A stretch of DNA of 64,000 nucleotides from the NCBI GenBank assembly GCA_012267415.1, contig JAAXGN010000053.1:1-64000 (forward strand), given 5' to 3'. The translations under genes were made by a program, and so were the position numbers. The stretch comes from Candidatus Poribacteria bacterium (GTDB taxonomy: Bacteria; Poribacteria; WGA-4E; WGA-3G). Position 1 is the stretch's first letter. Each line of letters opens with the position of its first letter. Below the pieces are notes generated by a model. It made no database searches. It was not told where the DNA came from and saw only the letters and a list, made by a program, of their open reading frames with translations. Shown here piece after piece: positions 5,248 through 39,095 of the stretch.

Positions 5248-5352
5248 TATGTGTTGGCTCCTTCTAAGTAGACGTTCGTTCCACCAAATTTTTATGCGTT
5301 ATTGTGATTATAGCGCGGGCGTGTGTGCATGTTAAAGTTAAACTTCAGAACA

Positions 5353-6123
5353 TTATTTTTTCTTGATCTGTCCCCAAGTCATTGCCAGTTTACCTGATGG
5401 TTCTACATCCAATGACTCACTGTCCATAACTGCAGCAATTTCATTTTCAGTCAGGACACGGTCATAAAGCCGTACTTCGTCGATTATACCCAAGAATCGG
5501 TAGTTATGCGATGCTGTTTCATTTGCGCCTGCCCCGATCAGTAATTCATGCACGGTATTCACGGAGATGTCAAAGTTTTCTTCACCAATAAATTCACCGT
5601 TCACATAAAATTTATGATTACCATCAGCATAAGTTCCAGCAAGATGCTCCCATTCATCAAGGTTCACTGCAGGTCCTCGAACAGGTTTCCAATGATTCGC
5701 GCCAGCACCAATCCAAAACTCCCAGGTATTTCCAGGTTCACAATAGAATATGTAGCCACGTTGCGGAAAGTCGTCCCGAGAGGAAACAACGGCTCTATGA
5801 CCTGTTCCATTTGAAGCGACATTTGCCCATGCTGTTATTGTGAAGACTTCTGGATTGAGATCTTCATGATACGGCACGTCTACTTCACTACCAACCGCAT
5901 TGAATTCCAGCGCGCCTCCGTATTTGCCGTCCTTAGTTCTTTCCGTTCCACCTATCAGTGTACCGTCGTGTCCATTTCCAGACACATCTTTTGCAGTATC
6001 ACCACTATTTCCGTTAAAATCCCAGTATGCAATAATTCCTTCTGTCAAGTCTTGGGATAGAACGGGTAGAACAAAAAGTGCAATGCAAAAGAGCATTGAC
6101 AGTGTGATCAAAATAGTCTTCAT
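5353..6123 (-). CDS. Secreted LamG (concanavalin A-like) domain protein
   Basis: 256 residues with a clear signal peptide (about 1-24) and one LamG/laminin-G-3 domain (about 30-225), shown by A-Y-W-D-F-N-G-N-S-G-D near its start, G-N-G-H-D-G-T, a central H-R-A-V-V-S-S-R-D-D-F-P-Q-R-G segment and D-E-V-R-L-Y-D-R-V-L near its end. LamG folds bind carbohydrate or protein and have no catalytic residues by themselves. The C-terminus ends in T-W-G-Q-I-K-K-K, conserved in the next gene. AAGGAG precedes the ATG. It is a tandem paralog of 6170-6934, roughly two-thirds identical by eye. Confidence 0.88.
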   Translation of the reverse strand: MKTILITLSMLFCIALFVLPVLSQDLTEGIIAYWDFNGNSGDTAKDVSGNGHDGTLIGGTERTKDGKYGGALEFNAVGSEVDVPYHEDLNPEVFTITAWANVASNGTGHRAVVSSRDDFPQRGYIFYCEPGNTWEFWIGAGANHWKPVRGPAVNLDEWEHLAGTYADGNHKFYVNGEFIGEENFDISVNTVHELLIGAGANETASHNYRFLGIIDEVRLYDRVLTENEIAAVMDSESLDVEPSGKLAMTWGQIKKK

Positions 6124-6169
6124 CGTTAACTCCTTCTTTTTTGAGTCACTGAGAAATATAATCAGTTGC

Positions 6170-6934
6170 TTATTTTGCTTTGAGTTGTCCCCAAGTTACA
6201 GCAATCTTTCCCAAACTGTCTACAGGGGTTACTTGACTTTCCATGACTAAAGCGATTTCGCTTTCATCTAAAACTCGGTCATATACACGGACATCATCTA
6301 TTTTACCGACAAAACGGTAATTGTGAGTAGCGGTTTCATTTGCCCCAGCACCTATCAGAAATTCTTGTACTGCGTTAACAACTAATGCCGAAGTTGTTTC
6401 ACCGACAAGTTCCCCGTTTACGTAGAACTTCTGTGATCCGTCAGCATAGGTACCAACGAGGTGGTCCCAGTCATCTAGATTTACGTCTGGACCTGAGATA
6501 GGTTTCCATCCACCCCCACCTGTCCAAAACTGCCATATATTGTTTGGTGTGGCATAGAAGATGTATCCGCGTTGCGGGAAATCATCACGTGAGGAAATTA
6601 CGGCGCGATGCCCGGTTCCACCCGTTCTTGCGTTTGCCCATGCCGTGATAGTAAAAGTTTCTGGATTAAGTGTTGCATGAAAGGGGATGTCAACTTCATC
6701 ACCTGTACCATCAAATTCAAGTGCCCCGTCGAAGTATCCATCTGTCCATTGTGGGTCTCCCACGAGGGTTCCTTCATGACCGTTGCCGCTTGAATCCCCT
6801 ACTGTATTACCACTTGCATCATTCAATGTCCAATGTGCCACGAGTCCATCAGTAACGCTTTGGGAATACAGTGGTTGACAGAAGACCATTATTGAAAGTA
6901 TCGGCAATATGACTAATAGATTTATAGGTTTCAT
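6170..6934 (-). CDS. Secreted LamG domain protein, tandem paralog
   Basis: 254 residues with the same plan as its neighbour: signal peptide (about 1-24), a single LamG domain with H-W-T-L-N-D-A-S-G-N-T-V, the identical H-R-A-V-[IV]-S-S-R-D-D-F-P-Q-R-G-Y-I-F core and D-D-V-R-V-Y-D-R-V-L, and a C-terminal T-W-G-Q-L-K-A-K tail. Just 46 bp separates the genes, so they form a two-gene unit. AAGGAA precedes the ATG at 6934. The product is presumably extracytoplasmic; the ligand is unknown. Confidence 0.88.
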   Translation of the reverse strand: MKPINLLVILPILSIMVFCQPLYSQSVTDGLVAHWTLNDASGNTVGDSSGNGHEGTLVGDPQWTDGYFDGALEFDGTGDEVDIPFHATLNPETFTITAWANARTGGTGHRAVISSRDDFPQRGYIFYATPNNIWQFWTGGGGWKPISGPDVNLDDWDHLVGTYADGSQKFYVNGELVGETTSALVVNAVQEFLIGAGANETATHNYRFVGKIDDVRVYDRVLDESEIALVMESQVTPVDSLGKIAVTWGQLKAK

Positions 6935-6995
6935 CTTATGTTCCTTATGTTATATGGATTGTTGTTTGTTCTGAAAAATTGCTACCTTACGGACA

Positions 6996-7022
6996 GCACA
7001 CGGCGTGTGCCTACTACTTTTA
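6996..7022. repeat. Palindromic unit GGCACACGGCGTGTGCC, copy 1
   Basis: Near-perfect 17-bp palindrome (this copy starts with A in place of the first G) followed by TACTACTTTTA. A second copy follows at 7027 and a third is at 45416. The copies share the flank as well as the palindrome, so they are homologous rather than chance palindromes. Confidence 0.8.
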
Positions 7023-7026
7023 TGAC

Positions 7027-7054
7027 GGCACACGGCGTGTGCCTACTACTTTTA
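7027..7054. repeat. Palindromic unit GGCACACGGCGTGTGCC, copy 2
   Basis: Directly repeats the unit at 6996 with a period of about 32 bp. It sits in the gap between the LamG gene start and the PhoX-type gene stop, which otherwise holds AT-rich sequence with TTGACA/TGTCAA motifs and no gene. Confidence 0.8.
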
Positions 7055-7175
7055 AAAACATATTTTGACAGTAATTGTCAAAAATAATTCTATACTTAAA
7101 ACATTCTGTTGTCAAGAAAAACTACAACGGGTGTGTTAAGCTTTTGAAAACCTCGTGGGTTGGAGGGACAATTCA

Positions 7176-8627
7176 CTAAACTAATTTTCTCTGTCTTATA
7201 TCACCCCAAGGACCCGTAATAGCAAGCGTTATTCCAGGACGCTGGATATTGACAAAGAGGGTCGTGCCATCAGGGGAGAAAACTGCACCAGCCAACTCTG
7301 AAGTGTTGCTGGCATTTCGGGCAAACTGATAGGTGTGTCCTTCGGGGGTAACACCAACTAAAAACTGTTCTTTTGAACCGTCTTCACAGATTATAACATC
7401 TCCCCAAGGGGCCACAGTTAAGTTATCTGCGTTCTCAAGGAGTTTACTATCGTTGGGTTCAATGAAGAGTTCAAGTGTTCCCGGTTCTTTATCTTCGCGA
7501 CTTGTTCCTTCGTATTGGCTCGGAATATATTTCCATATCTGTCCTTTGTTTGCAATACCACCATTCGTACAAGCGAAATAGATCGTATCTCCACTATACC
7601 AGATTCCTTCACCTCGAGCAAACTTTGCAGCATTTTTGCTTTCCGTACCTTGTAAACGTAGATCATCCTTCGGTGATTCTACATTTTCAATATCCACCCA
7701 AGCAGTTGCCATCTTCTGTGAGACGGGTATCGGATCGTAAGTCCAAGGAGCGACTTTTTGCAGACCTGTCTTCCAGTTTCGTGTGTCGGGATCGGTCATA
7801 TCTCTGATTATCAATGCTTGAAGACGTCCCCCTTTTGCGAGATTGCCGGGTTCATCAGGAATGAACCGATAAAAGAGACCGTCATTTCTGTCCTCTGTTT
7901 CGTAGACGATGCCGGTATCTGAAGCAACTGCGACGGCTTCATGATTGAAACGTCCCATTGCTTTAAGCGGTACTGCGTTGACTAGGCCTGGGGTTGTCGT
8001 AACAGGCACTTCAAAATTGTATCCGTGATCTTGCTCAAAGTCATTCTCAGCTTTCTGAACTGTTTCTTCACAAGTTATCCAGGTATTCCAAGGTGTAGGT
8101 CCACCTGCACAATTCCGTATTGTTCCAGCGAGACTCAAAAAGTGTTTTTCAAGGGTTCCTGTCCGTGTGTCATATATGAGGGTTGTTGTTGCGCCAAGGC
8201 TCGGAGACTTCCTGTTTCCCAGATCGTAAATTTTTTCTGTGTCAACAAGGTTCAGTTTCTCGTTATTCCATCCGAAGGGACCGACGATTTTGTCGTTAGC
8301 AGTCAATTCGTGATTACGTATAAGGATAGTCTTTCCTTTAGGACCTTGAAATGTTGCCATGCCATCATGCTTTCCTGGTACCCACAATCCATCGTCCATT
8401 ATCTCACCTGTGCGTGAGAAGGCATGACAAACAAAACCTTCGGGGAGATCAAGCAATTTATTAGGGCTGGGATTAAAAACATAAGGCGGATCAGGTTTAA
8501 GACCCGGTATGTGTTTAATCAGTTTACGACTCACACCAGAGAATCCGAAACCTACTGCAGCTGATCCTAAGGCTACGCCACCGTAACTAAGAAATTGTCG
8601 TCGTGAGAGTTTAGGCTTCACGTTCAC
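7176..8627 (-). CDS. PhoX-type (DUF839) Tat-exported phosphatase-like protein
   Basis: 483 residues from a GTG at 8627, chosen because TAGGAG lies just upstream and the product then begins right before a twin-arginine signal (S-R-R-Q-F-L-S-Y-G-G followed by a hydrophobic stretch). The mature part matches the DUF839/PhoX beta-propeller family: a propeller with P-E-G-F near its start, H-D-G-M, R-N-H-E, C-A-G-G-P-T-P-W-N-T-W-I-T-C-E-E, N-H-E-A-V-A-V and G-E-G-I-W. Characterised PhoX enzymes are periplasmic calcium/iron phosphomonoesterases. C-x(3)-T-P-W-x-T-x-x-T-C-E-E is a hallmark. Whether this copy is an active phosphatase is not shown. It is divergent from leuS. Confidence 0.85.
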   Translation of the reverse strand: MNVKPKLSRRQFLSYGGVALGSAAVGFGFSGVSRKLIKHIPGLKPDPPYVFNPSPNKLLDLPEGFVCHAFSRTGEIMDDGLWVPGKHDGMATFQGPKGKTILIRNHELTANDKIVGPFGWNNEKLNLVDTEKIYDLGNRKSPSLGATTTLIYDTRTGTLEKHFLSLAGTIRNCAGGPTPWNTWITCEETVQKAENDFEQDHGYNFEVPVTTTPGLVNAVPLKAMGRFNHEAVAVASDTGIVYETEDRNDGLFYRFIPDEPGNLAKGGRLQALIIRDMTDPDTRNWKTGLQKVAPWTYDPIPVSQKMATAWVDIENVESPKDDLRLQGTESKNAAKFARGEGIWYSGDTIYFACTNGGIANKGQIWKYIPSQYEGTSREDKEPGTLELFIEPNDSKLLENADNLTVAPWGDVIICEDGSKEQFLVGVTPEGHTYQFARNASNTSELAGAVFSPDGTTLFVNIQRPGITLAITGPWGDIRQRKLV

Positions 8628-26446: not shown

Positions 26447-27808
26447 TTAAATTGAATAGATCATTCTGCTGGCTTCTTCAAATTCCGGTTTGAGTGGGTC
26501 TGTTGACAGATATAACTTTTGATAAGGTTCATATAGTTGGATATAACTCCAATTGACTCCACACAGCACTTTGCCGTTATTGACAAGTTTGATAAATCTA
26601 CCACGGAACTTTGCGCGGGTGTTCTCAGGAGGTGAATGCATCGCCTTGCGGATGTGTGAGTCGTCCAATATCCTCTCTATCAAACCGCGTTTTTCAGCTT
26701 TATAAAAGACGCCTAAATCCTGACGGATATTATGGTATTCTAAATCTATTCGTTTAACCTCAGCAGAATCCCACTTTATTGATCGATGTTTTACATAGGT
26801 CTCAATACACTTACGTTTGATGACCCAATCTAATTCACGGTCAAGTTGCATCGGATCTTGTTCCAATCGTGTCATCACATATTCCCAACGTTTCATCACT
26901 TCATCCGTTGTTGGGTCAGATTCAGCCTGTTCAAGATATCTTTTAGCACATTCAAAGTATCGCCATTGAAGTTCTATTGCTGTTAATCGCTTACCATTAT
27001 CAAGCTCAATCAGTCTTTTGCAGGATATATCTTCAGAAATTTCATGAATGGCTTGTACCGAATTTCGTAGAGCGAAATGTTCATTAATGAAGTGATCTTC
27101 AATCATCCGAAGAATGATTCCGGTTATGCCAACCTTTAGAAGAGTTGAGTATTCCGACATATTAGAATCCCCTACGATGACGTGCAGACGTCTATATTTT
27201 TCTCTATCAGCATGGGGTTCATCCCGGGTGTTGATGATTCCGCGTGCGGTTGTTGTTGCTATTGAGATTTCTTCTCGGATATGTTGGGCGCGTTGTGATA
27301 TTTCGTAGAAGCCTTGGTCACTTCGTTTTACTTTTCCTGCGCCAGTGTATATTTGTCGGGTAACAAAAAAGGGGATGAGTTGTGATGCAAGTTGCCGAAA
27401 ACTGACCTTTTCACGTTCCATCAGATAGTTTTCATGACAACCGTAAGTATTGCCGACTGTATCTAAGTTGTTTTTGAATATAGAGATTTTTCCTCTAAAA
27501 CCGTCCGCTTTCATCCTGCGTTCAGCAGTTGTTGCGAGTCGGGTTACGATTCGTTCTCCTGCTTTATCATGTGCGACCAGATCGATCACATCATCACATT
27601 CAGGGGTAGCATATTCTGGATGGCATCCGATATCTTGATAGAATCGTGCGCCGTTTTCCAAGAAAACATCTGGATACATCCGTCCAGAGATGATTTCACG
27701 GAACAAGTACATCACAACATTCTGGACAGTGAGTTTTTTACCTCTGTTTTTGTCGGGTGTGCAGATGATGCCGTATTCCGTTTCCAACCCATAAATTCTA
27801 CGATGCAT
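26447..27808 (-). CDS. pafA: Pup-protein ligase PafA
   Basis: 453 residues, matching the usual length of about 450. PafA uses ATP to join the C-terminal glutamate of Pup to lysines of target proteins, marking them for the proteasome. It is a glutamine-synthetase-fold enzyme. G-L-E-T-E-Y-G at 7-13 gives the Mg-ATP Glu (E9), and Y-Q-D59-I-G-C-H-P-E-Y-A-T-P-E-C gives the catalytic Asp. S-H/C-H-E-N-Y-L and N-T-R-D-E-P-H-A-D are also present. It lacks the extra loop that marks Dop, which separates the two paralogs. Its ATG overlaps the prcA stop by 11 bp, indicating translational coupling. Confidence 0.96.
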   Translation of the reverse strand: MHRRIYGLETEYGIICTPDKNRGKKLTVQNVVMYLFREIISGRMYPDVFLENGARFYQDIGCHPEYATPECDDVIDLVAHDKAGERIVTRLATTAERRMKADGFRGKISIFKNNLDTVGNTYGCHENYLMEREKVSFRQLASQLIPFFVTRQIYTGAGKVKRSDQGFYEISQRAQHIREEISIATTTARGIINTRDEPHADREKYRRLHVIVGDSNMSEYSTLLKVGITGIILRMIEDHFINEHFALRNSVQAIHEISEDISCKRLIELDNGKRLTAIELQWRYFECAKRYLEQAESDPTTDEVMKRWEYVMTRLEQDPMQLDRELDWVIKRKCIETYVKHRSIKWDSAEVKRIDLEYHNIRQDLGVFYKAEKRGLIERILDDSHIRKAMHSPPENTRAKFRGRFIKLVNNGKVLCGVNWSYIQLYEPYQKLYLSTDPLKPEFEEASRMIYSI

Positions 27809-28508
27809 GGCTCAAAATCTCAGCTATTTCTTCAATAGAAAATCTGCGAAATTTCCGTCTACCAGCAGTAGCATCCAGGCACGCAACTTCTATCGTTTGT
27901 GGGGTAATCTGATACGGTTCAGATTCTTCAGATTCTACTTTTTTAAAGGTTCGAGACGCAAGTTGCAAGGCAGCGGATAATTCTAAATCGGCGGAATAAT
28001 CTTCTTGAAGAATCTGTACAATGGCTTCTGCTCTTCCGCCAATGACTGCAAAGTTCTCCTCCTCACGGTATGTCCCATCAAAATCTATGTAATATATCTG
28101 GTTTTCCACTGATGGATCCTCATCTACCTCACATACAAGTAGTTCAATCTCAAGAGGCTTTGCATCCCATGTTTGTGATATGGAACCCATATACTGTGAA
28201 TAGAGATTAGTCAACCACTTACCGGTAACATCTTCTCGAAAATATGTGTAGCCTTTAAGCTCTGCCTCGCGAATTCCTGCTACACGTAATGTCTCATATT
28301 CAGCAATACGACCTGTTGATGCAAGTGCTATCTTGTCATATATCTCAGATATTTTATAGGTAGTTCTACGCGGGTTCTCTGCTACCATCAAGAGTCCGTT
28401 TTTATATCCTAAGACAACTACCTCTTTTGCTTGTTCAATACCGCGTCGGACAAAATCTCTTTTATCTTCCCATATCTGTTCAGGGGAAACATAATAAGGT
28501 GTTGACAT
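27798..28508 (-). CDS. prcA: Proteasome alpha subunit
   Basis: 236 residues. It forms the outer, non-catalytic rings and gate of the bacterial 20S proteasome. The N-terminus Y-Y-V-S-P-E-Q-I-W-E-D-K matches the actinobacterial gate region, and G-Y-K-N-G-L-L-M-V-A-E-N-P matches the first strand pair. There is no catalytic Thr, as expected. A gap of 116 bp to prcB is larger than other junctions in the cluster and contains no further gene. Confidence 0.95.
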   Translation of the reverse strand: MSTPYYVSPEQIWEDKRDFVRRGIEQAKEVVVLGYKNGLLMVAENPRRTTYKISEIYDKIALASTGRIAEYETLRVAGIREAELKGYTYFREDVTGKWLTNLYSQYMGSISQTWDAKPLEIELLVCEVDEDPSVENQIYYIDFDGTYREEENFAVIGGRAEAIVQILQEDYSADLELSAALQLASRTFKKVESEESEPYQITPQTIEVACLDATAGRRKFRRFSIEEIAEILSHAS

Positions 28509-28624
28509 TAAAGCTCCATATCGGTTTTAAGTAAATCTAAGCAATATTAAATAATGAATTATCAATTTTCCGATTTTCCTGCAGGCACCGAAAATATTCA
28601 AACTTGCTTACGCAATGAATAGAT

Positions 28625-29416
28625 CTACGTTTGTTCCAAACGGGAAATCAGTTCCCGGAACAACTCAGCTACGGTGTCATCCGGGAGGGTGGCTACACCT
28701 TCATCTGTAATAGTTGTTAATGTTGGAAAGATATTCCTGATAAGGTCTGGTCCACCAGTGGCGATATCCTCATCTGCCGCATCCCATAATGCTTCGGCGA
28801 TGGCATTCAAGGCTGTTATCTCCGACATCTGTGGACGATACAACTTCTTCAAAGTTGCGCGGGCATCTTTACCACCAGAACCGATAGCATAATAGGTGTC
28901 TTCCTCATATCTTCCACCCAATGCATCGTACTTGAAAATTCTGCCCTTCCCAAGTTTCTTATCGTATCCAGCAAAAATCGGCAGCACGATTAATCCCTGC
29001 ATAGCCAATCCTATGTTTGAGCGAACAAGTGTTGACAGATAGTTGGCTTGTCCGTCCAAACTTAGGGACATACCCTCAATCTTTTCATAGTATTCCACTT
29101 GAACTTGAAAGAGTTTTGCTGTTTCAATACAGGGACCCGCAACACCAGCGACAGCAATAGCGGAATGCTGATCAATTTTGTACACTTTTTGGATACGTCG
29201 TTCCCCGACTTGGTAACCTTCTGTTGCTTGTCTATCACCTGCGATGATAACACCATCATCGTAGACGAGTGCAAGAACAGTCGTACCTTCCAGATAATTA
29301 TGCGGGAGGCTGTCATTTATACCGTTCAGTTGTGTCCAGTCCCCTAACTGATCGGGGTGCCGGTTCTTCAGAACTTGTAGAAAATCGTTCGTTCCATATT
29401 CATGGAGTTTGAGCAA
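28625..29416 (-). CDS. prcB: Proteasome beta subunit
   Basis: 263 residues. This is the catalytic ring of the 20S proteasome. A 44-residue propeptide ends in Y-L-E-G and cleavage exposes T45 (T-T-V-L-A-L). Counting from it, D61 and K77 fall exactly at the Asp17 and Lys33 positions of the active site, with I-G-S-G-G later. It starts with TTG at 29416. The AGGAGGG in the last codons of pup is its ribosome site, so it is tightly coupled to pup (3 bp apart). Confidence 0.95.
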   Translation of the reverse strand: MLKLHEYGTNDFLQVLKNRHPDQLGDWTQLNGINDSLPHNYLEGTTVLALVYDDGVIIAGDRQATEGYQVGERRIQKVYKIDQHSAIAVAGVAGPCIETAKLFQVQVEYYEKIEGMSLSLDGQANYLSTLVRSNIGLAMQGLIVLPIFAGYDKKLGKGRIFKYDALGGRYEEDTYYAIGSGGKDARATLKKLYRPQMSEITALNAIAEALWDAADEDIATGGPDLIRNIFPTLTTITDEGVATLPDDTVAELFRELISRLEQT

Positions 29417-29418
29417 TC

Positions 29419-29616
29419 CTACTGCCCTCCTCGCTGGATATAATTTTCGACGAATTCCTCTGAGTCTTCCTCCAGAATCTCATCAATTTCGTCGAGTAGC
29501 GCATCGAGGTCTTCTGTTAACTCGTCAACGTTTTCATTGAGTTCAGGATTTGGATAAATCTCCTCATTTTCTTTGATGGAGTTATCTTTGTATTCTTGCT
29601 GTTTTTCGCTTGGCAT
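29419..29616 (-). CDS. pup: Prokaryotic ubiquitin-like protein Pup
   Basis: 65 residues, highly acidic and without cysteines, fitting an intrinsically disordered tag. The C-terminal half, D-L-D-A-L-L-D-E-I-D-E-I-L-E-E, forms the segment that binds the ATPase coiled coils, and the end is Y-I-Q-R-G-G-Q. The terminal Gln must be deamidated to Glu by Dop before ligation, as in mycobacteria. AAGGAG lies 6 bases before the ATG. Confidence 0.96.
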   Translation of the reverse strand: MPSEKQQEYKDNSIKENEEIYPNPELNENVDELTEDLDALLDEIDEILEEDSEEFVENYIQRGGQ

Positions 29617-29717
29617 GTCGTACTCCTTATTAGGATTTAAGGTTACGGAATTCCGTATATCTATGTAGCCTTATAAAACCAACTTTAATCAACAGGGTTT
29701 ATATCTATTAAACAAGA

Positions 29718-31205
29718 TCATTTACAGTCGTCACGAATTTGGTTCACGAGTTCATCAACTGTGCAATTGTTGAGCATTTCACCGATTATCTCTTGTGTTC
29801 CAAAGTGGGGTCGTTCCATCATAATCTTTTCAAATCCTGAAGATCCGTTGAAAATAATAGAATTCCAACTTACGCTATGGATGTGACTTGGAAATCTACG
29901 TAAACAGGTTCCTCGAAAATAGGCACGTGTATCTAATGGTGGATGTTGAATTGCATGTACGACCTCCTCATGGGTTAAGATACGTTCTACATGTCCATTC
30001 TTTTGTAGTCGTAAGTACAATCCCTTATCTGGTCTTAGATCGTGATATTGCAGATCGAGCATTCTAACTTGAGGATCTGTCCACTTAAATCCGTGGCGTG
30101 CAATATACGCATCAATGAGTTTTTTCTTGATAATCCAATCCAGGTGCCTTCCTAAAGACATCGGGTCCTTTTGTAGCCTATTTAGCACAAAATCCCACTT
30201 CTGCATTACATCATCAACAATCGGTGTCCTTTCATCATCTGACAGATGTTTTTGTGCAAGGTTAAAATACGCACGTTGAATTTCAATTGCCGTCAAGTTA
30301 CGTCCATCTTTTAGTTCAATTTTCTGATTACACATCAAATCTCTTGATATTGACTTGATTGCTGCGACAGGTTCATTTAATGCGAACTGATCACGAACAA
30401 CACGTTTTTCAATTAATTGTAAGACTATTGCCGTGATACCGACTTTCAAATAGATTGTAAACTCGGACATGTTAGAGTCGCCGACGATCACATGCAAGCG
30501 TCTATAGCGAGTTGAATCGGCGTGTGGTTCATCTCTCGTATTAATTATGGGGCGTTCCACCATTGTGCTCAGTCCGACCTCTTTTTCAAAAAAGTCTGCC
30601 CGTTGAGAGATCTGAAAATCCGCTTCGTCTGCTCCGTTTTCAGCACCTACCTTACCGCTACCGGCTATGATTTGACGCGTCACAATAAATGGTGTTAAGC
30701 CATCAACTATGTCCGAAAAATCTATTTTACGCGACATCAAATAGTTTTCATGTGAGCCGTAACTATGTCCCTTATAGTCAGTATTGTTTTTATAGATGAT
30801 AATTTCTTGATTATCCAGTAGCAACTGTTCAGCGGCAAGTCTACTTAGGTCTAAAATCAACTCTCCTGCTTTTTCATACTTAACAAGGTCTCTTGCATTT
30901 GAGCATTCAGGTGTACAGTATTCAGGGTGTGCATGGTCTACATAATAACGACCCCCGTTTACCAGTATATCATTTACGACACTGTATGTATCCTCTTCAA
31001 CGATTGGTTTTTGACTTTCATCAATGAAACCGCGAGCGTCCATTAGCGGACTTTCTTGTGCATAATCCCATGAAATAGTCGGAATATTGCGACTTCTATA
31101 TGCATTGACAACTAATGTTGAAGCTGCAATTGGGTCTTGTTCTCTTGCGTTTTTTACCGAAATACCAAATTCTGTTTCTGTTCCGATTATCGTTGGTGTA
31201 GACAT
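29718..31205 (-). CDS. dop: Pup deamidase/depupylase Dop
   Basis: 495 residues. It converts Pup-Gln to Pup-Glu and also removes Pup from substrates. It is a paralog of PafA with the same glutamine-synthetase-like fold: G-T-E-T-E-F-G with E10, and the nucleophile Asp D90 in Y-Y-V-D-H-A-H-P-E-Y. About 35 additional residues at 41-75 contain S-P-L-M-D-A-R-G-F, the Dop loop. These two features separate it from PafA. A 100-bp gap separates it from pup; a small mobile-like element lies just upstream of its start. Confidence 0.95.
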   Translation of the reverse strand: MSTPTIIGTETEFGISVKNAREQDPIAASTLVVNAYRSRNIPTISWDYAQESPLMDARGFIDESQKPIVEEDTYSVVNDILVNGGRYYVDHAHPEYCTPECSNARDLVKYEKAGELILDLSRLAAEQLLLDNQEIIIYKNNTDYKGHSYGSHENYLMSRKIDFSDIVDGLTPFIVTRQIIAGSGKVGAENGADEADFQISQRADFFEKEVGLSTMVERPIINTRDEPHADSTRYRRLHVIVGDSNMSEFTIYLKVGITAIVLQLIEKRVVRDQFALNEPVAAIKSISRDLMCNQKIELKDGRNLTAIEIQRAYFNLAQKHLSDDERTPIVDDVMQKWDFVLNRLQKDPMSLGRHLDWIIKKKLIDAYIARHGFKWTDPQVRMLDLQYHDLRPDKGLYLRLQKNGHVERILTHEEVVHAIQHPPLDTRAYFRGTCLRRFPSHIHSVSWNSIIFNGSSGFEKIMMERPHFGTQEIIGEMLNNCTVDELVNQIRDDCK

Positions 31206-31247
31206 ATTATTTTTCGGAGTGCAATACTGACGTAAAGTTACTGTATG

Positions 31248-31362
31248 TATAGTGGATTTCAGAAATAATGAAACACTTCACAACGGGCGAGGAGACCTCG
31301 CCCCTACGCGGGGTAGTTTCTATAAACGCTGAAATGTCTCTTTAATTAATGACCTAACTATA
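31248..31362 (+). mobile_element. MITE-like element, copy A
   Basis: 115 bp beginning TATAGTGGATTTCAGAA and ending CTAACTATA, with a central perfect palindrome GGGCGAGG-AGA-CCTCGCCC. Two more copies are at 55192-55314 and 62764-62898. The imperfect terminal inverted repeats start with TATAGT and the outer TA could be a target duplication. There is no gene inside. It separates dop from the ATPase gene. Confidence 0.75.
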
Positions 31363-31393
31363 ATCTCACTCATTTCAGTATGATAATGATACT

Positions 31394-33190
31394 TTATAGG
31401 TACGATCCGCCTTTGCTGACTCTCATCTCAGGTTTCTTACGTGCTTCAGGTTGATTGATGAGTGCACGAATATTGACAATCTTTTCACCTTTTCTCCCGG
31501 AAATCTTTGCCCAATCATCAGGATTAGTGGTGTTAGGTAGATCCTCATTTTCTCTGTATTCTTCCCGGATAGCAATCTTCAGATCATCCAGAGAGATACC
31601 TTTGTCTTTTCCTTCAGAACTGATGAGGCGTTTAATAGCCATTTTCTTTGCCCGTGAAACGATGTTTCTAATCATTGCACCACTGACAAAGTCTTTGAAG
31701 AAGAGCGTTTCCCGTTCACCGCGTGTATACGTTACCTCAATAAATCTGTTTCCCTCAGTCGTGGCATACATTTCCTCAACCGCTTCATTGATAAGGTGTT
31801 CTACCATCTTATCCGCATCTTCATCAAATTGTTCAATAATGTTCTTGGCAAAAGGTAGGTCTGGTGTCAAATAAATAGCAAAGATGTCCTTGGCACCATC
31901 CATATTAGGACGATCAATCTTAATTTTTATATCAAGCCTGCCGGGTCTCAAAACTGCCGGATCAAGTAAATCTTGTCGATTACTTGCCCCGATGACAATC
32001 ACGTCGCGCAGGTTATCTACACCATCAATCTCTGCAAGGAATTGCGGTACCAGTGTAGACTCCATATCAGATGAGATACCCATACCACGCGAACGGAACA
32101 GGGAATCCATTTCATCAAAGAAAATGACGACTGGATATCCTTCTCTTGACTTATCGCGTGCTTTTTGAAAAACTTCCCTTATTTTTCGTTCTGTTTCCCC
32201 GACATACTTATTGAGAAGTTCAGGTCCTTTAATGTTTATAAAATATCCTCTGATGTCTTCTCTACCATATTTCTTCCGTATCCGCTCAGCGAGACAGTTC
32301 GCTACGGCACGTGCAATTAATGTTTTCCCACATCCTGGCGGTCCATACAGAAGTACACCTTTAGGGGGTGTTAAATCAAACTCTTTATACTCATCAGGAT
32401 AGAGATATGGCATCTCAATTGCATCTCGTATCGCCTCAATCTGAGAATCTAATCCACCTATATCTGCGTAACTTATATCGGGTACTTCTTCAAGCAACAG
32501 GTCATCGAGTTCGCGCTTTGGCAGTTTTTCAAGTAGCATACCGCTGCTGTGGTTTAGCAGGACAGGGTCTCCTGTCTTTAAGGTCTCATCTTTCAATGCC
32601 GAAGAAACCCGTACGACCTGTTCTTCATCGGTCCGCAGACTAACAATTGCGCGACCGGATTCAAGTATTTCCTTTATCTTTACGACATCACCGTGTTTCT
32701 CAGGGGGTTTGACAGCTATGACATTTAAACCACTATTAACAATTACTTCTTGTCCAACATCTATTTGATCAACGACGATTGCTGGGTCAAGATTGACTCG
32801 CCATTTCTTTCCGCCGATGTCAACATCAATCGTATTGTCATCATTTTTTCCGAGAAAAATCCCATAGTTGTTCGGAGGTGCGCTCAGCTGCTTAACCTTC
32901 TCCTTCAATAATTCAAGTTTTTCTCTTGCTTCCTGAAGGGTACCTGTAAGTTTCCGATTGCGTCTGTGTGCTTGCATTAATTCGCGAGTCATTTCGTACA
33001 AACGCGCGTCAACATCTTCATCGGGTGAAGATCTGAGCTGTCTTCTCAGATCAGACACCTCGTTCTCAAGCATCTCTATCTGCCAATTGAGCTCACGAAC
33101 CATCTGAGGGTAATCAACTTTATCTGTAGCAGCCTCTTCTATATCGGAACTTTTCAATAATTCAGATGAAGTGTTTCTTTTAGTTGCCAT
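31394..33190 (-). CDS. mpa: Proteasome-associated AAA ATPase (Mpa/ARC)
   Basis: 598 residues from the ATG at 33190; a GTG at 33205 is possible. This hexameric unfoldase binds Pup and feeds substrates into the proteasome. Order: N-terminal coiled coil (about 30-105), OB domains (about 110-225), then one AAA module with Walker A G-P-P-G-C-G-K-T (about 283-290), Walker B I-F-F-D-E-M-D (about 356-362) and the arginine-finger region L-R-P-G-R-L-D. The C-terminus S-Y-L has the penultimate Tyr used to dock on the alpha ring. No membrane segment, so it is not FtsH. Confidence 0.95.
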   Translation of the reverse strand: MATKRNTSSELLKSSDIEEAATDKVDYPQMVRELNWQIEMLENEVSDLRRQLRSSPDEDVDARLYEMTRELMQAHRRNRKLTGTLQEAREKLELLKEKVKQLSAPPNNYGIFLGKNDDNTIDVDIGGKKWRVNLDPAIVVDQIDVGQEVIVNSGLNVIAVKPPEKHGDVVKIKEILESGRAIVSLRTDEEQVVRVSSALKDETLKTGDPVLLNHSSGMLLEKLPKRELDDLLLEEVPDISYADIGGLDSQIEAIRDAIEMPYLYPDEYKEFDLTPPKGVLLYGPPGCGKTLIARAVANCLAERIRKKYGREDIRGYFINIKGPELLNKYVGETERKIREVFQKARDKSREGYPVVIFFDEMDSLFRSRGMGISSDMESTLVPQFLAEIDGVDNLRDVIVIGASNRQDLLDPAVLRPGRLDIKIKIDRPNMDGAKDIFAIYLTPDLPFAKNIIEQFDEDADKMVEHLINEAVEEMYATTEGNRFIEVTYTRGERETLFFKDFVSGAMIRNIVSRAKKMAIKRLISSEGKDKGISLDDLKIAIREEYRENEDLPNTTNPDDWAKISGRKGEKIVNIRALINQPEARKKPEMRVSKGGSYL

Positions 33191-33302
33191 ACAAGATTTT
33201 CTCACTTTCTATTGAAAAGATTGATGAAATAGTCATTTTATACCGACCTGAGTGTATACAAGTATATCATGTTGCGGTTTTTACTTCAAGAGAACTAACC
33301 AA

Positions 33303-33394
33303 GGGTGTGTAAAATTTTTGTAGAAACCCTTTCAGTGTAACGCGGTTAAAAAATTGTGTAACGCGGTTAAAATGTAACCAAAACTTTACACACT
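33303..33394. repeat. Inverted and direct repeats between recA and the ATPase gene
   Basis: GGGTGTGTAAAATTTTTG at 33303-33320 faces CAAAACTTTACACACT at 33379-33394 as an inverted pair. Between them GTGTAACGCGGTTAAAA occurs twice (33335-33351 and 33356-33372). The whole unit begins 2 bp beyond the recA stop. It might terminate or regulate readthrough into the ATPase gene. Confidence 0.65.
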
Positions 33395-33395
33395 C

Positions 33396-34526
33396 TCAAG
33401 AAGAGGTATCCTCAAATTCAGTATCTACATCTTCTTCAGTATCTACTTCTTCAGCAACATCATCAAGTGAATCTGACTGAACGATTGTACTTAAATTCTC
33501 ACGAATCTTCTTCTCCAGTTCAGCAGTAATATTGGAATTCTGTTCTAAGTAGGTTTTGACATTGTTTCGTCCCTGTCCAATTCTCTCATTGTTGTATGAG
33601 AACCATGAACCCCTCTTCTGAATATAACCCGCATCAACAGCGATGTCTAGCAGGTTGCCTTCTTTTGAGATACCTTTACCGAATGTTATATCAAACTCAG
33701 CTTCTCTGAAAGGGGGAGCGACCTTATTCTTCACGACCTTTACAAGCACTCTATTTCCGAGCACATCTTGTCCTTCTTTTATCTGTGTTGACCTTCTAAT
33801 TTCCAACCTAACGGATGCATGAAATTTCAAGGCGAGTCCACCCGGTGTCGTGTCTGGATTTCCAAACATGATACCTATTTTCTGTCGTATCTGGTTCGTA
33901 AAAATTACACATGTCTTGGACTTGTTTGTAACACCAGACAATTTACGTAGTGCTTTTGACATCAACCGTGGTAATAAGCCGACATGTGCGTCACCCATCT
34001 CACCTTCAATTTCAGCTTGTGGTGTTAGCGCAGCAACTGAATCAATTATAACAATATCAATTGCTCCGCTTCGGATAAGCGTTTCAACGATCTCCAATGC
34101 TTGTTCACCTGCATCCGGTTGAGAAATCAATAAGTTCTCAAGATTCACGCCTATATTTCGTGCATAAGTAGTGTCCAGGGCGTGTTCTACATCAATAAAT
34201 GCAGCGATTCCTCCCCTTTTCTGTGCTTCAGCAACGATGTGTAATGCTAACGTTGTCTTCCCTGTTCCTTCATGTCCAAAGACTTCAACGATTCTACCGC
34301 GTGGAACACCACCAACACCTAATGCCAAATCAAGTGCAAGTGCGCCAGTAGGTATAACCTCCACTGGAACAACTTCGTCACCTGTTAAACGCATGATGGC
34401 ACCTTTTCCATAGGCACGTTCAACTTGAGAAATAGCTTGGTCTACAGCTTTTCTCTTCTCTGCTGCATTCTTCTGTTCTTCAGCACTTAATTCATTTTCC
34501 ACATTCGTTTTATCATCTTTCGCCAT
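33396..34526 (-). CDS. recA: Recombinase RecA
   Basis: 376 residues. It forms filaments on single-stranded DNA, catalyses strand exchange and triggers the SOS response. Order: N-terminal helix, core with Walker A G84-H-E-G-T-G-K-T91, [19 protein letters not shown] as Walker B, L2 region N-Q-I-R-Q-K-I-G-x-M-F-G-N-P, then the C-terminal domain with G-S-W-F-S-Y and an acidic tail. The phosphate loop reads GHEGTGKT, whereas most RecA have GPESSGKT. No other change in key residues is visible. Only 6 bp separates it from thpR. Confidence 0.97.
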
Positions 34527-34532
34527 ATTACT

Positions 34533-35108
34533 TTACTTCCTTCCAAAATGAAATTTACTAATCGGCGTATATACTGCTCCAGTTGGGCGCAATTCACTTT
34601 TGACAAGTGTAATCTCATCTACCGCCATAGATGTATTCTGTATCGTCTGATATTCCTCAAACAGATCAACGTATCCTCTCAAGTCCGCATGTTGTCTCAG
34701 TCTTGCTAATGTCACATGTGGATGAAAGCGTTCATCACTCTTAACATCACAGTGCAACAGTGCGTTGTTAATGTATTTACTTAAACCTGTCGTTATTTTT
34801 CCCCCTTGCTTTAATCCTATCCATAATACGCGTGGGCGTGACAAATTCGGAAATGTACCAATTCCACCAAATTCCAGAGAAAAAGGTTTCTGTTTTGTTG
34901 CGACCTTATCTATAGCATTACAGATATCAGAAATACTATCTTTCTTTACATCTCCAAGGAACTTCAATGTCAAATGGAAGTTTCCGATTTTTGTCCAAGA
35001 TGCTTTTCCAATTTCTGTTCTCAATTCATTCTGAATCTTCTCAAAAACTTTTTGAACATGGACTGGAATCTCAATAGCAACAAAGCATCTGATGTAAACA
35101 GTTTTCAT
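34533..35108 (-). CDS. thpR: RNA 2',3'-cyclic phosphodiesterase (ThpR/LigT family)
   Basis: 191 residues. This 2H phosphoesterase family opens 2',3'-cyclic phosphates on RNA and was first seen as tRNA ligase activity. The two catalytic H-x-T motifs are H45-L-T47 (F-H-L-T-L-K-F-L-G) and H131-V-T133 (H-P-H-V-T-L-A-R). It opens R-C-F-V-A-I-E-I-P like other members. It lies between pgsA and recA, a neighbourhood known from other bacteria in which cinA or thpR precedes recA. Confidence 0.93.
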   Translation of the reverse strand: MKTVYIRCFVAIEIPVHVQKVFEKIQNELRTEIGKASWTKIGNFHLTLKFLGDVKKDSISDICNAIDKVATKQKPFSLEFGGIGTFPNLSRPRVLWIGLKQGGKITTGLSKYINNALLHCDVKSDERFHPHVTLARLRQHADLRGYVDLFEEYQTIQNTSMAVDEITLVKSELRPTGAVYTPISKFHFGRK

Positions 35109-35131
35109 TCCATTTTTCCAACAAAACTAAC

Positions 35132-35725
35132 CTATGTCTTAACAGAAAATACTTTACGGTTTCCGTATAAGAATTCAATTCCAGATGCGACGGTTAGAAC
35201 AACCGGTAGAAGCATCATAAAAAAAATTGGACCGTACTGTTGTATAACAAACTCGGTGTCTTTAAGGAATATTAGTAGAACTAAACTGATCGTAATAATA
35301 GTCAGTTGTGTTGCCGTCTTATATTTTCCCCATTTGTTTGCAGAAATAACATCTCCATTCTTAGCAACGACGATAATACGGACTGTCGTTACGATGATCT
35401 CACGTCCGAGTATAACGACTACCATCCATATAGGAATCAGTCTGACATTATCTGCTAAAAGTTCATGTTGAAATAGACAGAAACTAATCAGTGCTGTTGC
35501 CACTAATACCTTATCAACAATAGAGTCCATGAAACTACCGAATTCTGTTATACCCTCTTTTCGTGCGATTTTCCCATCTAATAGGTCAGTTATAGCTGCT
35601 AAGCCGAAACAGACTGCTGAAGGAAGCATCATTTTCGCACGAAAGAAGAAGAAAAAAGGAACAGTTAGCAATAAACGCGTAAAAGTCAGAAGATTAGCCA
35701 AACGAAAATATTGATGAGAACTCAT
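35132..35725 (-). CDS. pgsA: CDP-diacylglycerol-glycerol-3-phosphate 3-phosphatidyltransferase
   Basis: 197 residues, an integral inner-membrane enzyme that makes phosphatidylglycerol phosphate. It opens with L-A-N-L-L-T-F-T-R and carries the CDP-alcohol phosphotransferase motif: D47-L-L-D50-G51, A54-R55, G63, D67 and D71. The spacing between A-R and G is one residue shorter than the classical pattern. About four to six hydrophobic segments are seen. It lies 6 bp after lolA. A related CDP-alcohol transferase cannot be fully excluded, but length and motif fit PgsA. Confidence 0.88.
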   Translation of the reverse strand: MSSHQYFRLANLLTFTRLLLTVPFFFFFRAKMMLPSAVCFGLAAITDLLDGKIARKEGITEFGSFMDSIVDKVLVATALISFCLFQHELLADNVRLIPIWMVVVILGREIIVTTVRIIVVAKNGDVISANKWGKYKTATQLTIITISLVLLIFLKDTEFVIQQYGPIFFMMLLPVVLTVASGIEFLYGNRKVFSVKT

Positions 35726-35731
35726 AAATGC

Positions 35732-36457
35732 CTATTTTTTTTCCGAAAAATCAATCACCTCTGCATCCTCTGGTACGTTGAACTTAAATACATCTGAAGA
35801 CAATTCTTGGTCTCGTTTTATCTTAGAGAGTGATGTGATCACGCTTCGACGACTCTTATCAGGGAACTCTATTATGTAACCAAACTGGACAGGCAGCCAA
35901 TCCTTCTCTTGAACCCAAATCTCAAGTGTCTCTTTTTCTATGTTTTCATCAGATGTCTTATTATTTGTTCTATTTAGCAGATGCGGTTTAGGTGTCAGTC
36001 TTATCTGAAATACTCCTTTTGCATTTGCAGCCTCATCTGGCACCAACTCCATATCCCAATTCTCCGATACATCTTCAAGAGATGCTCCGATACCGGGTAG
36101 AATCTCACGACGTTCAGAAGTATCCCATTTTCTTTTATTTACTTGTTTGTATAAAGGTACATAAGACCATGCGTGAGAACCATCTAAAACGATAACTTTT
36201 ACAATTTGTTTGGGATTCTTTGGTGAGACAAATTCCTTTCGCAGCAGATTTGGCTTGCCGAATGTAAAGTGTCCAGTTGTCACATTTTTGCGTGTCTTAT
36301 AAAGTGTGGTCTCCTGAAATTCTGCACTGAAGTTTTTTGACTTATTGTAAGCAGTTTTGAAATTTTCAAAAATCTCGTCCACTGTAAAACTGTGCCCGTT
36401 GACAACAATTACAAAGTTTAGACAAAATAAAATCAGCAAATATCGCAGATGTTTCAC
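35732..36457 (-). CDS. lolA: Outer-membrane lipoprotein carrier LolA
   Basis: 241 residues with a signal peptide (about 1-22). LolA carries lipoproteins across the periplasm from the inner to the outer membrane. The family pattern is seen in F-S-A-E-F-Q-E-T near residue 43, G-x-F-T-F-G-K-P-N-L-L-R-K-E, L-D-G-S-H-A-W-S-Y-V-P and the late L-E-I-W-V-Q-E-K-D-W-L-P segment. It fits the many lipoproteins in this window. It is first in the run lolA-pgsA-thpR-recA. Confidence 0.87.
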   Translation of the reverse strand: MKHLRYLLILFCLNFVIVVNGHSFTVDEIFENFKTAYNKSKNFSAEFQETTLYKTRKNVTTGHFTFGKPNLLRKEFVSPKNPKQIVKVIVLDGSHAWSYVPLYKQVNKRKWDTSERREILPGIGASLEDVSENWDMELVPDEAANAKGVFQIRLTPKPHLLNRTNNKTSDENIEKETLEIWVQEKDWLPVQFGYIIEFPDKSRRSVITSLSKIKRDQELSSDVFKFNVPEDAEVIDFSEKK

Positions 36458-36531
36458 TCTGAATCTCCTATAATGTCAAATGAGGAACACTATGTGTTAG
36501 GAAAATAGTATATCACAACCAATTATGCCTG

Positions 36532-36954
36532 TCAATCATATTTTTCTGCTTTTTCGTTTTGCACAACTTCAGAAAACTCGGCATCTGAGGCGAGTAATCG
36601 TGTCCAATCCGTTAGTTCTACCTCAATATCAATTGCATCATCCAAAGCATAATAGACAAGTCTTTCTAAAGTCTCTGCCAGGTGCGTATTCCGAAAAAGT
36701 GCTTGGAACCATATACTGAAGGATTTTATCGCATCCGCTGATTCTGAGAATACCCATAAAATCACTCTACAGAAATCCAATCCTTCGTCAACCGATTGCT
36801 GTGAAATCCACACACCCTCCGGAAACCCACGAAACAGGGGTAATAGGTCTGCTATGACAACAACCCTATCATGGTCAAGGTATGAAATCTCTGGTGATAT
36901 ATCAAATTGGATAGCGTATTTATGCGTATGGAGTTCAATGTCATTTTTTTTCAA
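36532..36954 (-). CDS. Hypothetical protein
   Basis: 140 residues, acidic, no signal peptide or membrane span, starting with TTG at 36954 (GGGAGA upstream). No family is recognised. Features are a single hydrophobic segment R-V-V-V-I-A-D-L-L-P and an aromatic stretch F-S-I-W-F-Q-A-L-F. It is collinear with lolA, 74 bp upstream. Confidence 0.6.
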   Translation of the reverse strand: MKKNDIELHTHKYAIQFDISPEISYLDHDRVVVIADLLPLFRGFPEGVWISQQSVDEGLDFCRVILWVFSESADAIKSFSIWFQALFRNTHLAETLERLVYYALDDAIDIEVELTDWTRLLASDAEFSEVVQNEKAEKYD

Positions 36955-37163: not shown

Positions 37164-39095
37164 TTAGAGTGAATGTCCTGCCCCTGACGATGGCATGTAT
37201 AGATTCAACGCAAAACTGATCAAACTCAAAACACTTCTCGGAATAAAGTCCCCTAATACCAACCCGAGAAAGAAAGGAATTGCTTTGCGATAGGTATGCC
37301 ACCCAGAGAACCGTAGGATCATGAATTTGAGAAACCAACTTACCATCACAGGAAACCAGAAATAGATCAGTCCACCCCACGAAGCACCTGAGAGAACATA
37401 ACCTGATGGATGCAAAGTCCACCATAGTAGACGAGTCCGCAGAAAATGCAACAGGAAGACAAAACCGAACCCTCCACTCATAAAGATGATAGAACTAACA
37501 TTCGCTTCTCTGGGATGTTGTAACCAGCTTTGAAGCGGATTGAAACTCTCCCAACCAAAATGACCAACATGTCCTTGACACCTTGCAAGTACACCGTAAT
37601 GATATGCAACTTGTAGATATGTCCAAAATGTAGCAACTGCACCGACACCGATAGCAAGAGCCATGCTCAGAACCAATGTTTTACCGGGGATCCGTGCTTG
37701 ATCTCCAATGCGCAAGGATTCTATCTGGTTTGGCATCGGATGTGAACGATTACAACGGTTAAAAGCGTATAGAAAAGTCATGACAGTTAGGTTCGGAGCA
37801 CCCAAAACTCGCGTACCGATGGTATTGACCATGATCTGACGTGGATTGATACCGATAACCTCATGGTATGGGGGACCTAACTCTGCACGCACCCGACCAA
37901 TTGCTAAGGCAAATGCGATGAAGAGTACATAGAAAACTGTGATGACCCATAGCGACATTCCGGCAAAATAGCAGAACCCGAATACACCACCAACACTAAG
38001 AATGGATAGAATTGCTGTTGTCCGATATGTCAAAGGTTCATTTGCATCATCACCCCGCTCAAGGCCTATAGCATGTCTGAGAAACCTTATTATATGTCTT
38101 CGTCCCATCCAAAGCGTTAGTGCTGCGATCCCGATCCATGCACCGGATGCACGGTCATTGAGTCCAAGTCTACTGATATTGGTTACCCCAACGGCACTTG
38201 CTATCACCCGTTCTGCCCGCGTAAGCCAGAAGAAAAACCATGTTGAGAACGATAGATCAAGCGGCATAAAATACGTCAATCCAACAATTGCAAGGTTGAA
38301 GGACATTGAGACATATCCTACAGCACTCCAAGGTCGTTCCGTAATGTGTCTGTCAAGTCTGTAACTTGATGGAAATGCGGGTATCACAGGAAACAGATCA
38401 TGTAAACCTGCTAATACACGTAACAGGGCAGCGATGCCGAAACCTATCCAGAGTGAACGTAATTTGAAAAAACTACGGTTCGTTGTCATTTGGAGCGGTA
38501 ATTGGGTTAATGGGAAGCTTAGTTTTTCGCGTTCCATCCACTGCTTGCGAAGTAGCAAACCCAGACAGAGTAAAGATCCGTATAGGATAAAGATAAAACC
38601 GGACCAGATAAGAATCGGTTTTATCCATACGGTTAGATGTTCTGACAGATAGAAACTTGATTCACCTTCATAATAGCCTGCCAACCATTCTGGGTCATGC
38701 ACTGTCAACCATTCAGGAATATGGTGTAAAAAGAGTTGCGCCCATTCGTTTTCAGCACTTTCGAACCAGAACGGATGCGCTAATGTTCCCATCAGAATTG
38801 CCATCATTGCATGACCTGAGATCGTAGAAACCATGGTCACCATGATGTAGATCAATAGCAATTCAGCACGCGTAAAAGCAGCACGCGGTGATATTCTCCC
38901 TAAGACGAAGTTCAGCGCGAGAAGGACGACTAATGTAAAAACAGCATTGGAAAAAGGGGAGACAAGTGTATAGACTGCGTACCAAAGTTCACTTGCAATA
39001 CCGACCCAGTACGCATTAACGATGACAAGGACTAAACCTACTATTATCGCTTTCTTGGAGATTACCTCACTGGACGTTGAGGGGGGTGGATGCAT
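37164..39095 (-). CDS. DUF6785-type polytopic membrane protein
   Basis: 643 residues with about 14 hydrophobic segments. The first follows a short cytoplasmic start with several Ser. The extracytoplasmic loop around residues 120-160 is rich in Trp and acidic residues. The pattern (R-A-E-L-L-L-I-Y-I-M-V-T-M, M-E-R-E-K-L-S-F-P-L-T-Q-L-P, R-V-R-A-E-L-G-P-P-Y-H-E) matches the DUF6784/DUF6785 proteins of planctomycete- and Poribacteria-like genomes, distantly reminiscent of oligopeptide transporters. Substrate unknown. Confidence 0.78.
   Translation of the reverse strand: MHPPPSTSSEVISKKAIIVGLVLVIVNAYWVGIASELWYAVYTLVSPFSNAVFTLVVLLALNFVLGRISPRAAFTRAELLLIYIMVTMVSTISGHAMMAILMGTLAHPFWFESAENEWAQLFLHHIPEWLTVHDPEWLAGYYEGESSFYLSEHLTVWIKPILIWSGFIFILYGSLLCLGLLLRKQWMEREKLSFPLTQLPLQMTTNRSFFKLRSLWIGFGIAALLRVLAGLHDLFPVIPAFPSSYRLDRHITERPWSAVGYVSMSFNLAIVGLTYFMPLDLSFSTWFFFWLTRAERVIASAVGVTNISRLGLNDRASGAWIGIAALTLWMGRRHIIRFLRHAIGLERGDDANEPLTYRTTAILSILSVGGVFGFCYFAGMSLWVITVFYVLFIAFALAIGRVRAELGPPYHEVIGINPRQIMVNTIGTRVLGAPNLTVMTFLYAFNRCNRSHPMPNQIESLRIGDQARIPGKTLVLSMALAIGVGAVATFWTYLQVAYHYGVLARCQGHVGHFGWESFNPLQSWLQHPREANVSSIIFMSGGFGFVFLLHFLRTRLLWWTLHPSGYVLSGASWGGLIYFWFPVMVSWFLKFMILRFSGWHTYRKAIPFFLGLVLGDFIPRSVLSLISFALNLYMPSSGAGHSL

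Follow-up and report, generated by a model that had tools for sequence, protein, structure and literature searches.

A Pup-proteasome locus directly behind recA, and a second tag-proteasome system of the UBact type, in Candidatus Poribacteria

Current reviews present the bacterial proteasome as a feature of Actinobacteria (PMC6466877, PMC8223512), and one of them names a GxYx tail motif for the proteasomal ATPase (PMC6466877). Outside Actinobacteria, Pup has been reported from nitrospirae, deltaproteobacteria, planctomycetes and verrucomicrobia (Iyer et al. 2008, PMC2588565); the part of that paper that was available names no Poribacteria and describes no organism with two full systems. As for function, excerpts of PMC8223512 state that, in mycobacteria, PafBC (encoded beside pafA) activates recA, that RecA is removed after DNA damage, and that RecA of M. 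smegmatis is pupylated and falls back to its pre-stress level only in strains with both pupylation and the proteasome. Here we describe a locus on contig JAAXGN010000053.1 (assembly GCA_012267415.1) of a Candidatus Poribacteria bacterium, located in a stretch of 64,000 nucleotides (nt; positions 1 to 64,000, referred to as the window). We read it, with a probability of about 0.83, as a Pup-proteasome operon that immediately follows a lolA-pgsA-thpR-recA block, is most likely driven by a sigma-70-type promoter of its own and shares its genome with a second tag-proteasome system. This second system belongs to the UBact type, which was reportedly first described by Lehmann et al. in 2017 (BBRC 483:946-950).

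Gene content and conserved residues of the locus

The locus (26447-36457, minus strand) comprises, in the direction of transcription, lolA, pgsA, thpR, recA, arc, dop, pup, prcB, prcA and pafA, and all ten open reading frames (ORFs) are open (Table 1). Gene families were assigned with Pfam and NCBIfam profiles scored against curated cut-offs; these profiles named all ten collinear genes and bore out the original prediction, made from the letters of the window, that a bacterium with LolA carries a full Pup-proteasome locus behind recA. LolA, PgsA and PafA passed their Pfam cut-off, with the best NCBIfam model for each remaining below its own. The PDB matches of the window PafA and Dop were known Dop and PafA chains, Dop matching best to Dop 4b0r (E = 1.3e-138). 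The genes are tightly packed at two junctions, i.e., prcA and pafA overlap by 11 nt and prcB begins with a TTG codon 2 nt past the pup stop codon.

The claim that all key residues look intact likewise agrees with our alignments. Thr45, Asp61 and Lys77 of PrcB, which we take to be the catalytic Thr1, D17 and K33, were present in 32/32 Pup-type rows, and 44 residues precede the presumed Thr1 in the window protein. The aspartate in the column of PafA D59, presumably the active-site Asp of the ligase, was kept in 27/28 PafA and 28/28 Dop rows; Walker A and the DE pair of ARC were intact in 24/24 rows; and PrcA Lys52, which we assume to be the pocket lysine thought to receive ATPase tails, was conserved in 29/29 Pup-type rows, an equivalent lysine being found in 16/16 UBact-type rows. 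All 25 aligned Pup tails ended in GGQ or GGE, QRGGQ in the window (tail counts pool loci from several scans, and one genome may count twice). Pup-type ARC proteins ended in G-x-[YF]-x in 27/28 rows (Tyr in 23, Phe in 4), the remaining row (L055) being a faulty extraction; in these residue and C-terminus tables, L086 and L097 are one identical sequence.

By analogy with the characterized pathway, Dop would deamidate the GGQ end of Pup to GGE, PafA would then join deamidated Pup to lysines of substrates, and ARC, through its GGSYL end, would feed the tagged proteins into the PrcA-PrcB core; Dop could also strip the tag again. We infer these steps, as well as all functions discussed below, from sequence.

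Table 1. Features of the Pup-proteasome locus and its upstream flank (positions in the window; promoters are predicted)
Feature	Position	Strand	Evidence
pafA, Pup-protein ligase, 453 amino acids (aa)	26447..27808	-	PF03136 507.6 bits (cut-off 25); groups with Pup-type PafA in tree
prcA, 20S proteasome alpha subunit	27798..28508	-	TIGR03691 242 bits (cut-off 139)
prcB, 20S proteasome beta subunit	28625..29416	-	TIGR03690 279 bits (cut-off 192)
pup, 65-aa tag ending QRGGQ	29419..29616	-	PF05639 65.4 bits (cut-off 27); TIGR03687 53.3 (cut-off 41.5)
dop, Pup deamidase/depupylase, 495 aa	29718..31205	-	TIGR03688 575.8 bits (cut-off 492.3)
arc/mpa, proteasomal AAA ATPase, C-terminus GGSYL (GxYx motif)	31394..33205	-	TIGR03689 709.5 bits (cut-off 504.8)
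Predicted arc-operon promoter, TTGAAG-17-TATACT, TG before -10	33261..33289	-	Conserved in aligned gaps of window and 15 close loci
recA, 376 aa	33396..34526	-	TIGR02012 531 bits, above cut-off
thpR, RNA 2',3'-cyclic phosphodiesterase	34533..35108	-	TIGR02258 154 bits, above cut-off
pgsA-type CDP-alcohol phosphatidyltransferase	35132..35725	-	PF01066 120 bits, above cut-off; TIGR00560 100.6, below 109.1
lolA, outer-membrane lipoprotein carrier	35732..36457	-	PF03548 35.6 bits, above cut-off; TIGR00547 55.9, below 112
Predicted promoter of lolA-pgsA-thpR-recA unit, TTGACA-17-TATACT, TG before -10	36507..36535	-	11/12 consensus; pattern at lolA in 23/46 relatives
Unnamed conserved ORF, ~140 aa, upstream of lolA	36532..36954	-	Kept in 43/46 lolA-holding poribacterial loci

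A second, UBact-type cassette in the same genome

Outside the window, contig C143 of the same genome (G000) carries a second cassette, arc2-dop2-UBact-prcB2-prcA2-pafA2 (L090, 8928-15839). Its 65-aa tag ends in RTGE and matches the UBact models NF033388 (77.2 bits, cut-off 35) and PF20513 (68.8 bits, cut-off 27.8), and it is linked to a ligase-family pair, an ATPase and 20S subunits. The NCBIfam Pup-system models scored below their cut-offs here (ATPase 451/505, Dop 478/492, beta 158/192 and alpha 66/139). PrcA2 was recognized as an alpha subunit by profile comparison with PrcA (99.8%) and by its matches to PDB alpha chains (3.7e-09). Overall, the window genome holds four Pup-ligase-family matches, and at least four were found in 20 of the 31 genomes searched, some of them being fragments (e.g., in G006).

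Among 84 genomes of the phylum, Pup was found in 77 and UBact in 75; 70 genomes have both tags, 7 Pup only, 5 UBact only and 2 neither. The two tagless genomes are the sole members outside the main class, within which both tags occur in 70/82 genomes. Several of the one-tag genomes are incomplete; the Pup-only genomes G025 and G004 are ~95% complete. In three genomes of family f7 (G008, G009, G011) the UBact genes are split over two contigs. The earlier remark that Pup is only patchily found in Gram-negative lineages may hold across phyla but does not describe this phylum, where Pup is near universal. As the window genome is a 5.46-Mb draft of 170 contigs (97.6% complete, 5.29% estimated contamination), one could suppose that its UBact locus stems from contaminating or wrongly binned sequence; in each of the six single-contig genomes (G023, G045, G079, G081, G082, G083), however, both tags are found on that single contig, which, together with the 70 genomes holding both, makes such an artifact exceedingly improbable.

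The proteins of the two loci share 39% (ARC), 42% (Dop), 41% (PafA), 40% (PrcB) and 30% (PrcA) identity. Trees separated Pup-type from UBact-type sequences with support of 100/100 for ARC and PrcB (careful trees) and 100 for PrcA (quick tree), with Poribacteria, Rokubacteria and the actinobacterium all on the Pup-type side; roots were placed at midpoints. The four ligase groups (PafA, Dop, PafA2 and Dop2) each formed one side of a branch in a 35-row tree, and the Dop group received a support of 89 in a 90-row tree. Given this deep separation, the second system is not a recent copy of the first. An independent origin of the two PafA/Dop pairs was also considered: PafA2 groups with Dop2, and PafA with Dop, at a support of 94 in the 90-row and 82 in the 35-row tree, but the alternative was not rejected (approximately unbiased (AU) test, P = 0.258), and such an origin is no more than possible. 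Homology between Pup and UBact was not retained, as profile comparison gave a probability of 4.7% over nine residues and detected no homology beyond the last nine residues.

The ends of the proteins differ between the systems as well. UBact-type ARC has no Tyr among its last five residues (16/16 rows) and carries two terminal aliphatic residues in 15/16 rows, -VI in 12 of them; the UBact tails are RTGE in 15/16 and RTGQ in 1/16. These data suggest that each ATPase serves its own core. Besides its RTGE-ending tag, the second cassette has a ligase-family pair and 20S subunits of its own, together with its own ATPase, in which the Tyr tail motif is missing. We favor, with some reserve, the view that most genomes of the main class encode two separate, non-interchangeable tagging proteasomes (Pup and UBact) in one cytoplasm, each served by a ligase, deconjugase, unfoldase and 20S core of its own, which have probably been apart since before the class diversified.

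We consider this dual arrangement, rather than the recA neighbor, to be the main interest of the locus: a phylum outside Actinobacteria keeps the Pup-proteasome in most of its genomes, and with it a second version that uses another tag. If both systems work, it becomes possible to ask how a cell prevents the crossing of two homologous tag-ligase-unfoldase-core systems, and such naturally separate pairs would provide testable rules for the tag tail, the ligase, the ATPase tail and the alpha-ring pocket. The recA neighbor is a milder point; it recalls the mycobacterial link to DNA damage, but pafBC was not seen next to the locus.

Association of recA with the proteasome operon

Named genome contigs were scanned with the window Dop, which yielded 59 loci (54 Pup-type and one UBact-type (L086) from Candidatus Poribacteria, three from Rokubacteria and one from an actinobacterium). 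The closest to the window were two Candidatus Poribacteria records with a Dop identity of 97%. In the poribacterial Pup-type loci read that do not run into a contig end, the order from arc to pafA was constant. Upstream of arc, recA is present in 47/54 Pup-type loci, equivalent to 47/49 judgeable loci, as five are truncated at contig edges (L059, L060, L072, L079, L089); the other two, L077 and L088, showed no recA upstream of arc across >8 kb. recA was also found upstream of arc in families f1 (G028, G059) and f2 (G013, G014) of the phylum and in three genera of f3 (G015, G016, G017), where 0.9-2.6 kb separate the two.

Elsewhere in the phylum the order does not hold. recA and the proteasome operon are apart in f4 (G025, G026), f5 (G004), f7 (G008, G009, G011) and genus g8 of f3 (G018, G023), and in G006 (f7) a single contig holds both, 24 kb from each other; G012 showed no arc within 3.6 kb of recA, up to the contig end, and in G003 and G005 the regions stop at contig ends. 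Separate loci in relatives had been named beforehand as the finding that would speak against a coupling of the two blocks, and this is what these genomes show. The lolA-pgsA-thpR-recA block is retained, in some genomes with insertions, without an adjacent operon in G004, G006, G011, G012, G018, G023, G025 and G026, as well as in G024, a genome that gave no Pup hit; in G007, G008 and G009 the surroundings of recA did not show the block. As the recA block and the operon are separable in other families, the locus is two gene blocks set side by side. G018 and G023 (L140, L141, L156, L157) have two recA genes per genome, neither adjoining the proteasome operon.

Spacing points to the same division. 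The recA-arc gap measures 190 nt in the window and 148-2565 nt (median 264) across relatives, with 0/47 loci below 50 nt; pup and prcB, by comparison, are separated by 2 nt or less in 50/50 loci, and the thpR-recA gap has a median of 46 nt (start-codon choice, or a repeated stretch in L031, accounts for some negative gaps and for the thpR-recA gap of 1602 nt in L031). In the five loci with recA-arc gaps >1 kb (L045, L046, L055, L058, L067), an extra ORF of 243-268 aa lies within the gap on the same strand, and L046 has a second one of 369 aa; judged by eye, the extra ORF of these five loci begins like a signal peptide. The repeated stretch of L031, one of the records with a Dop 97% identical to that of the window, is a tandem repeat of pgsA-thpR-recA (3888-7810) with a partial first recA, either a true duplication or an assembly error.

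An alignment of the window's recA-arc gap with those of 15 close loci was poor except for TTG[AT][AT]G-17-TATA[CT]T, with TG before the -10 box, and a stretch just before arc. We searched for a sigma-70 extended -10 pattern, defined as TTG[AT][ACT][AG], a spacer of 16-18 and TGn before TATA[ACT]T. This pattern occurs 83-197 nt before arc in 46/51 usable poribacterial loci (the regions of L059, L072 and L079 being too short) as compared to 0.08% of shuffles, which here, in the terminator scan and in the comparison of arc with arc2 regions preserve base content only. It was found in 0/47 regions before recA (L059, L060, L072, L077, L079, L088 and L089 having no recA), 0/54 before dop, 0/51 before pup and 0/50 before pafA (L045, L051, L064 and L079 are without pafA, the hit there being dop), and in 23/46 before lolA. 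These results point to two operons, each with a predicted housekeeping-type promoter, and arc-dop-pup-prcB-prcA-pafA is most likely an operon of its own whose transcription would start from the predicted sigma-70-type promoter in the recA-arc gap. A direct repeat in this gap (AACCGCGTTACAC, two copies and no others in the window) was rejected as a conserved operator, as only the near-identical L031 of the 15 aligned loci has it. A promoter shared between the arc operon and the UBact operon was not evident (15 arc2 regions gave a mean of 4.3 vs 2.4 when shuffled, as compared to 11.2 vs 3.3 for 54 arc regions).

Several observations weigh against reading the locus as a Pup-type operon with its own promoter. 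The best NCBIfam model for PafA, TIGR03686, scored 520.4 bits vs a cut-off of 551.3; the four Phe-bearing rows among the 28 Pup-type ARC rows end in GGTFL or GGTFF and thus have no Tyr; and the tree program issued a long-branch warning for PrcB and PrcA. The promoter pattern is missing before arc in L047 (both boxes present, no TG), L060, L077, L088 and L089, and in arc regions at the order and class level it was found, within 400 nt, in 7/16 usable cases. Moreover, a plain promoter scan of the window gave 27 sites, 33261-33289 among them, vs 27.2 expected by chance, and the arc promoter therefore rests on conservation. Finally, no terminator-like site was found in 40 recA-arc gaps, and readthrough is thus possible; however, the same scan found one in only 1/52 regions taken as lying behind pafA (up to three of them behind dop) and none in shuffles, so that the empty gaps say little.

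The original prediction went further and took the position of recA to suggest a fusion of the two blocks under linked control. Under this explanation readthrough from the lolA-recA unit would continue into arc, and damage would raise RecA together with its later remover. A functional tie between recA and the proteasome is plausible because RecA of mycobacteria is a pupylation target that is cleared after DNA damage, the pre-stress level in M. smegmatis being restored only with pupylation and the proteasome, and because PafBC activates recA (PMC8223512, as excerpted); the recurrence of recA upstream of arc in the 47 loci and the terminator-free gaps fit as well. Against a single co-regulated unit stand the conserved promoter element of arc itself, a gap that is never shorter than 148 nt and in five loci holds an extra ORF, and the separation of recA from the operon in other families. 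LexA_DNA_bind, examined as a sign of SOS control, matched 16/27 genomes tested, but neither the window genome nor its single-contig congener G045, and a PafBC-like control found no better footing, as WYL matched 11/13 genomes but not G000 or G079, with no WYL match near the pup locus and no pafBC seen beside the window pafA. We therefore judge it unlikely that recA and the proteasome genes form one co-regulated unit. LexA DNA-binding matches do occur in other genera of the window's family, G000 and G045 being the tested genomes of its genus.

That the adjacency is purely historical, i.e., that the blocks met in part of the order and stayed together without a shared function, has in our view an even chance of being true, and it is compatible with an operon that has its own promoter. 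It agrees with the separation of recA and operon in f4, f5, f7 and g8 (with its two recA genes) and with the separate promoter-like elements of the two blocks. A ppdK-like ORF behind pafA also persists in 32/50 loci, among them the recA-less L077 and L088; we label it after pyruvate phosphate dikinase from reading a stretch of sequence (e.g., L046 15259-17895). The idea that recA-arc outlasts every outer neighbor was rejected on this account, and as the ORF persists also without recA, durable neighbors are not special to recA. On the other hand, the window's own neighbors that were tested are hardly kept: only in L031 and L032 does the upstream gene at 37164-39095 adjoin the block (41 loci have at least 2 kb before lolA), a distant relative occurring elsewhere in L075, and the sulfatase-like gene, which in the window takes the place of the ppdK-like ORF behind pafA, adjoins the block in no relative (44/50 loci have at least 2 kb behind pafA).

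Overall, gene content and order, their conservation, the key residues, the separation of both systems in trees and the conserved promoter-like sequence were observed directly, and we retain the reading of a Pup-proteasome operon with its own probable promoter beside the recA block. Regarding other features, the ORF at 36532-36954 matched no NCBIfam family at E 0.001 and gave a single chance-level Pfam match (E = 0.038), and at Rfam gathering cut-offs the window yielded no RNA element. The arc-dop gap contains, at about 31281-31312, a palindrome-like element (GGCGAGGTCTCCTCGCC) with one further full copy in the window, perhaps a dispersed repeat.

Comparison with known tag-proteasome systems

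The window locus is a Pup-proteasome system, i.e., one of a known kind, and UBact systems are known too. We found no report that places either system in Poribacteria, or both in one organism, in the literature covered, which excludes the founding UBact paper and most subscription journals, and an earlier report of the pairing is possible. The systems of Iyer et al. 2008 (PMC2588565, available in part) resemble the window in having a tag ending in G-[EQ] beside PafA-family genes, in most cases with proteasome genes as well.

Rokubacteria provided the closest non-poribacterial Dop proteins found (52-54% identity to the window). In the phylum of these loci, Pup was detected in 83/95 genomes and UBact in 0/95, a zero that leans on the success of the same search in Poribacteria. 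Here 18/20 pup regions showed no proteasome gene (nine of the 18 span only 1.8-3.2 kb) and none had recA; L190-L195, L197, L198 and L200 are among the regions with pup and no proteasome genes nearby.

With the actinobacterial Pup-proteasome (Mpa/ARC, Dop, Pup, PrcB, PrcA, PafA) the window shares all six components, the GGQ end of Pup, the protein families and the GxYx tail, and its sequence holds the features by which a Pup system is recognized, namely a GGQ tag, PafA, Dop, a GxYx ATPase and a 20S core with a predicted N-terminal Thr nucleophile. Unlike the actinobacterial hosts, its host has a lolA gene, recA next to the operon, no pafBC seen beside pafA, no WYL match in the genome and a second, UBact-type system. 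The second locus has the same kinds of parts as the UBact system (tag, Pup_ligase-family pair, ATPase and 20S genes), which the window locus is not, and here it shares its genome with a full Pup system.

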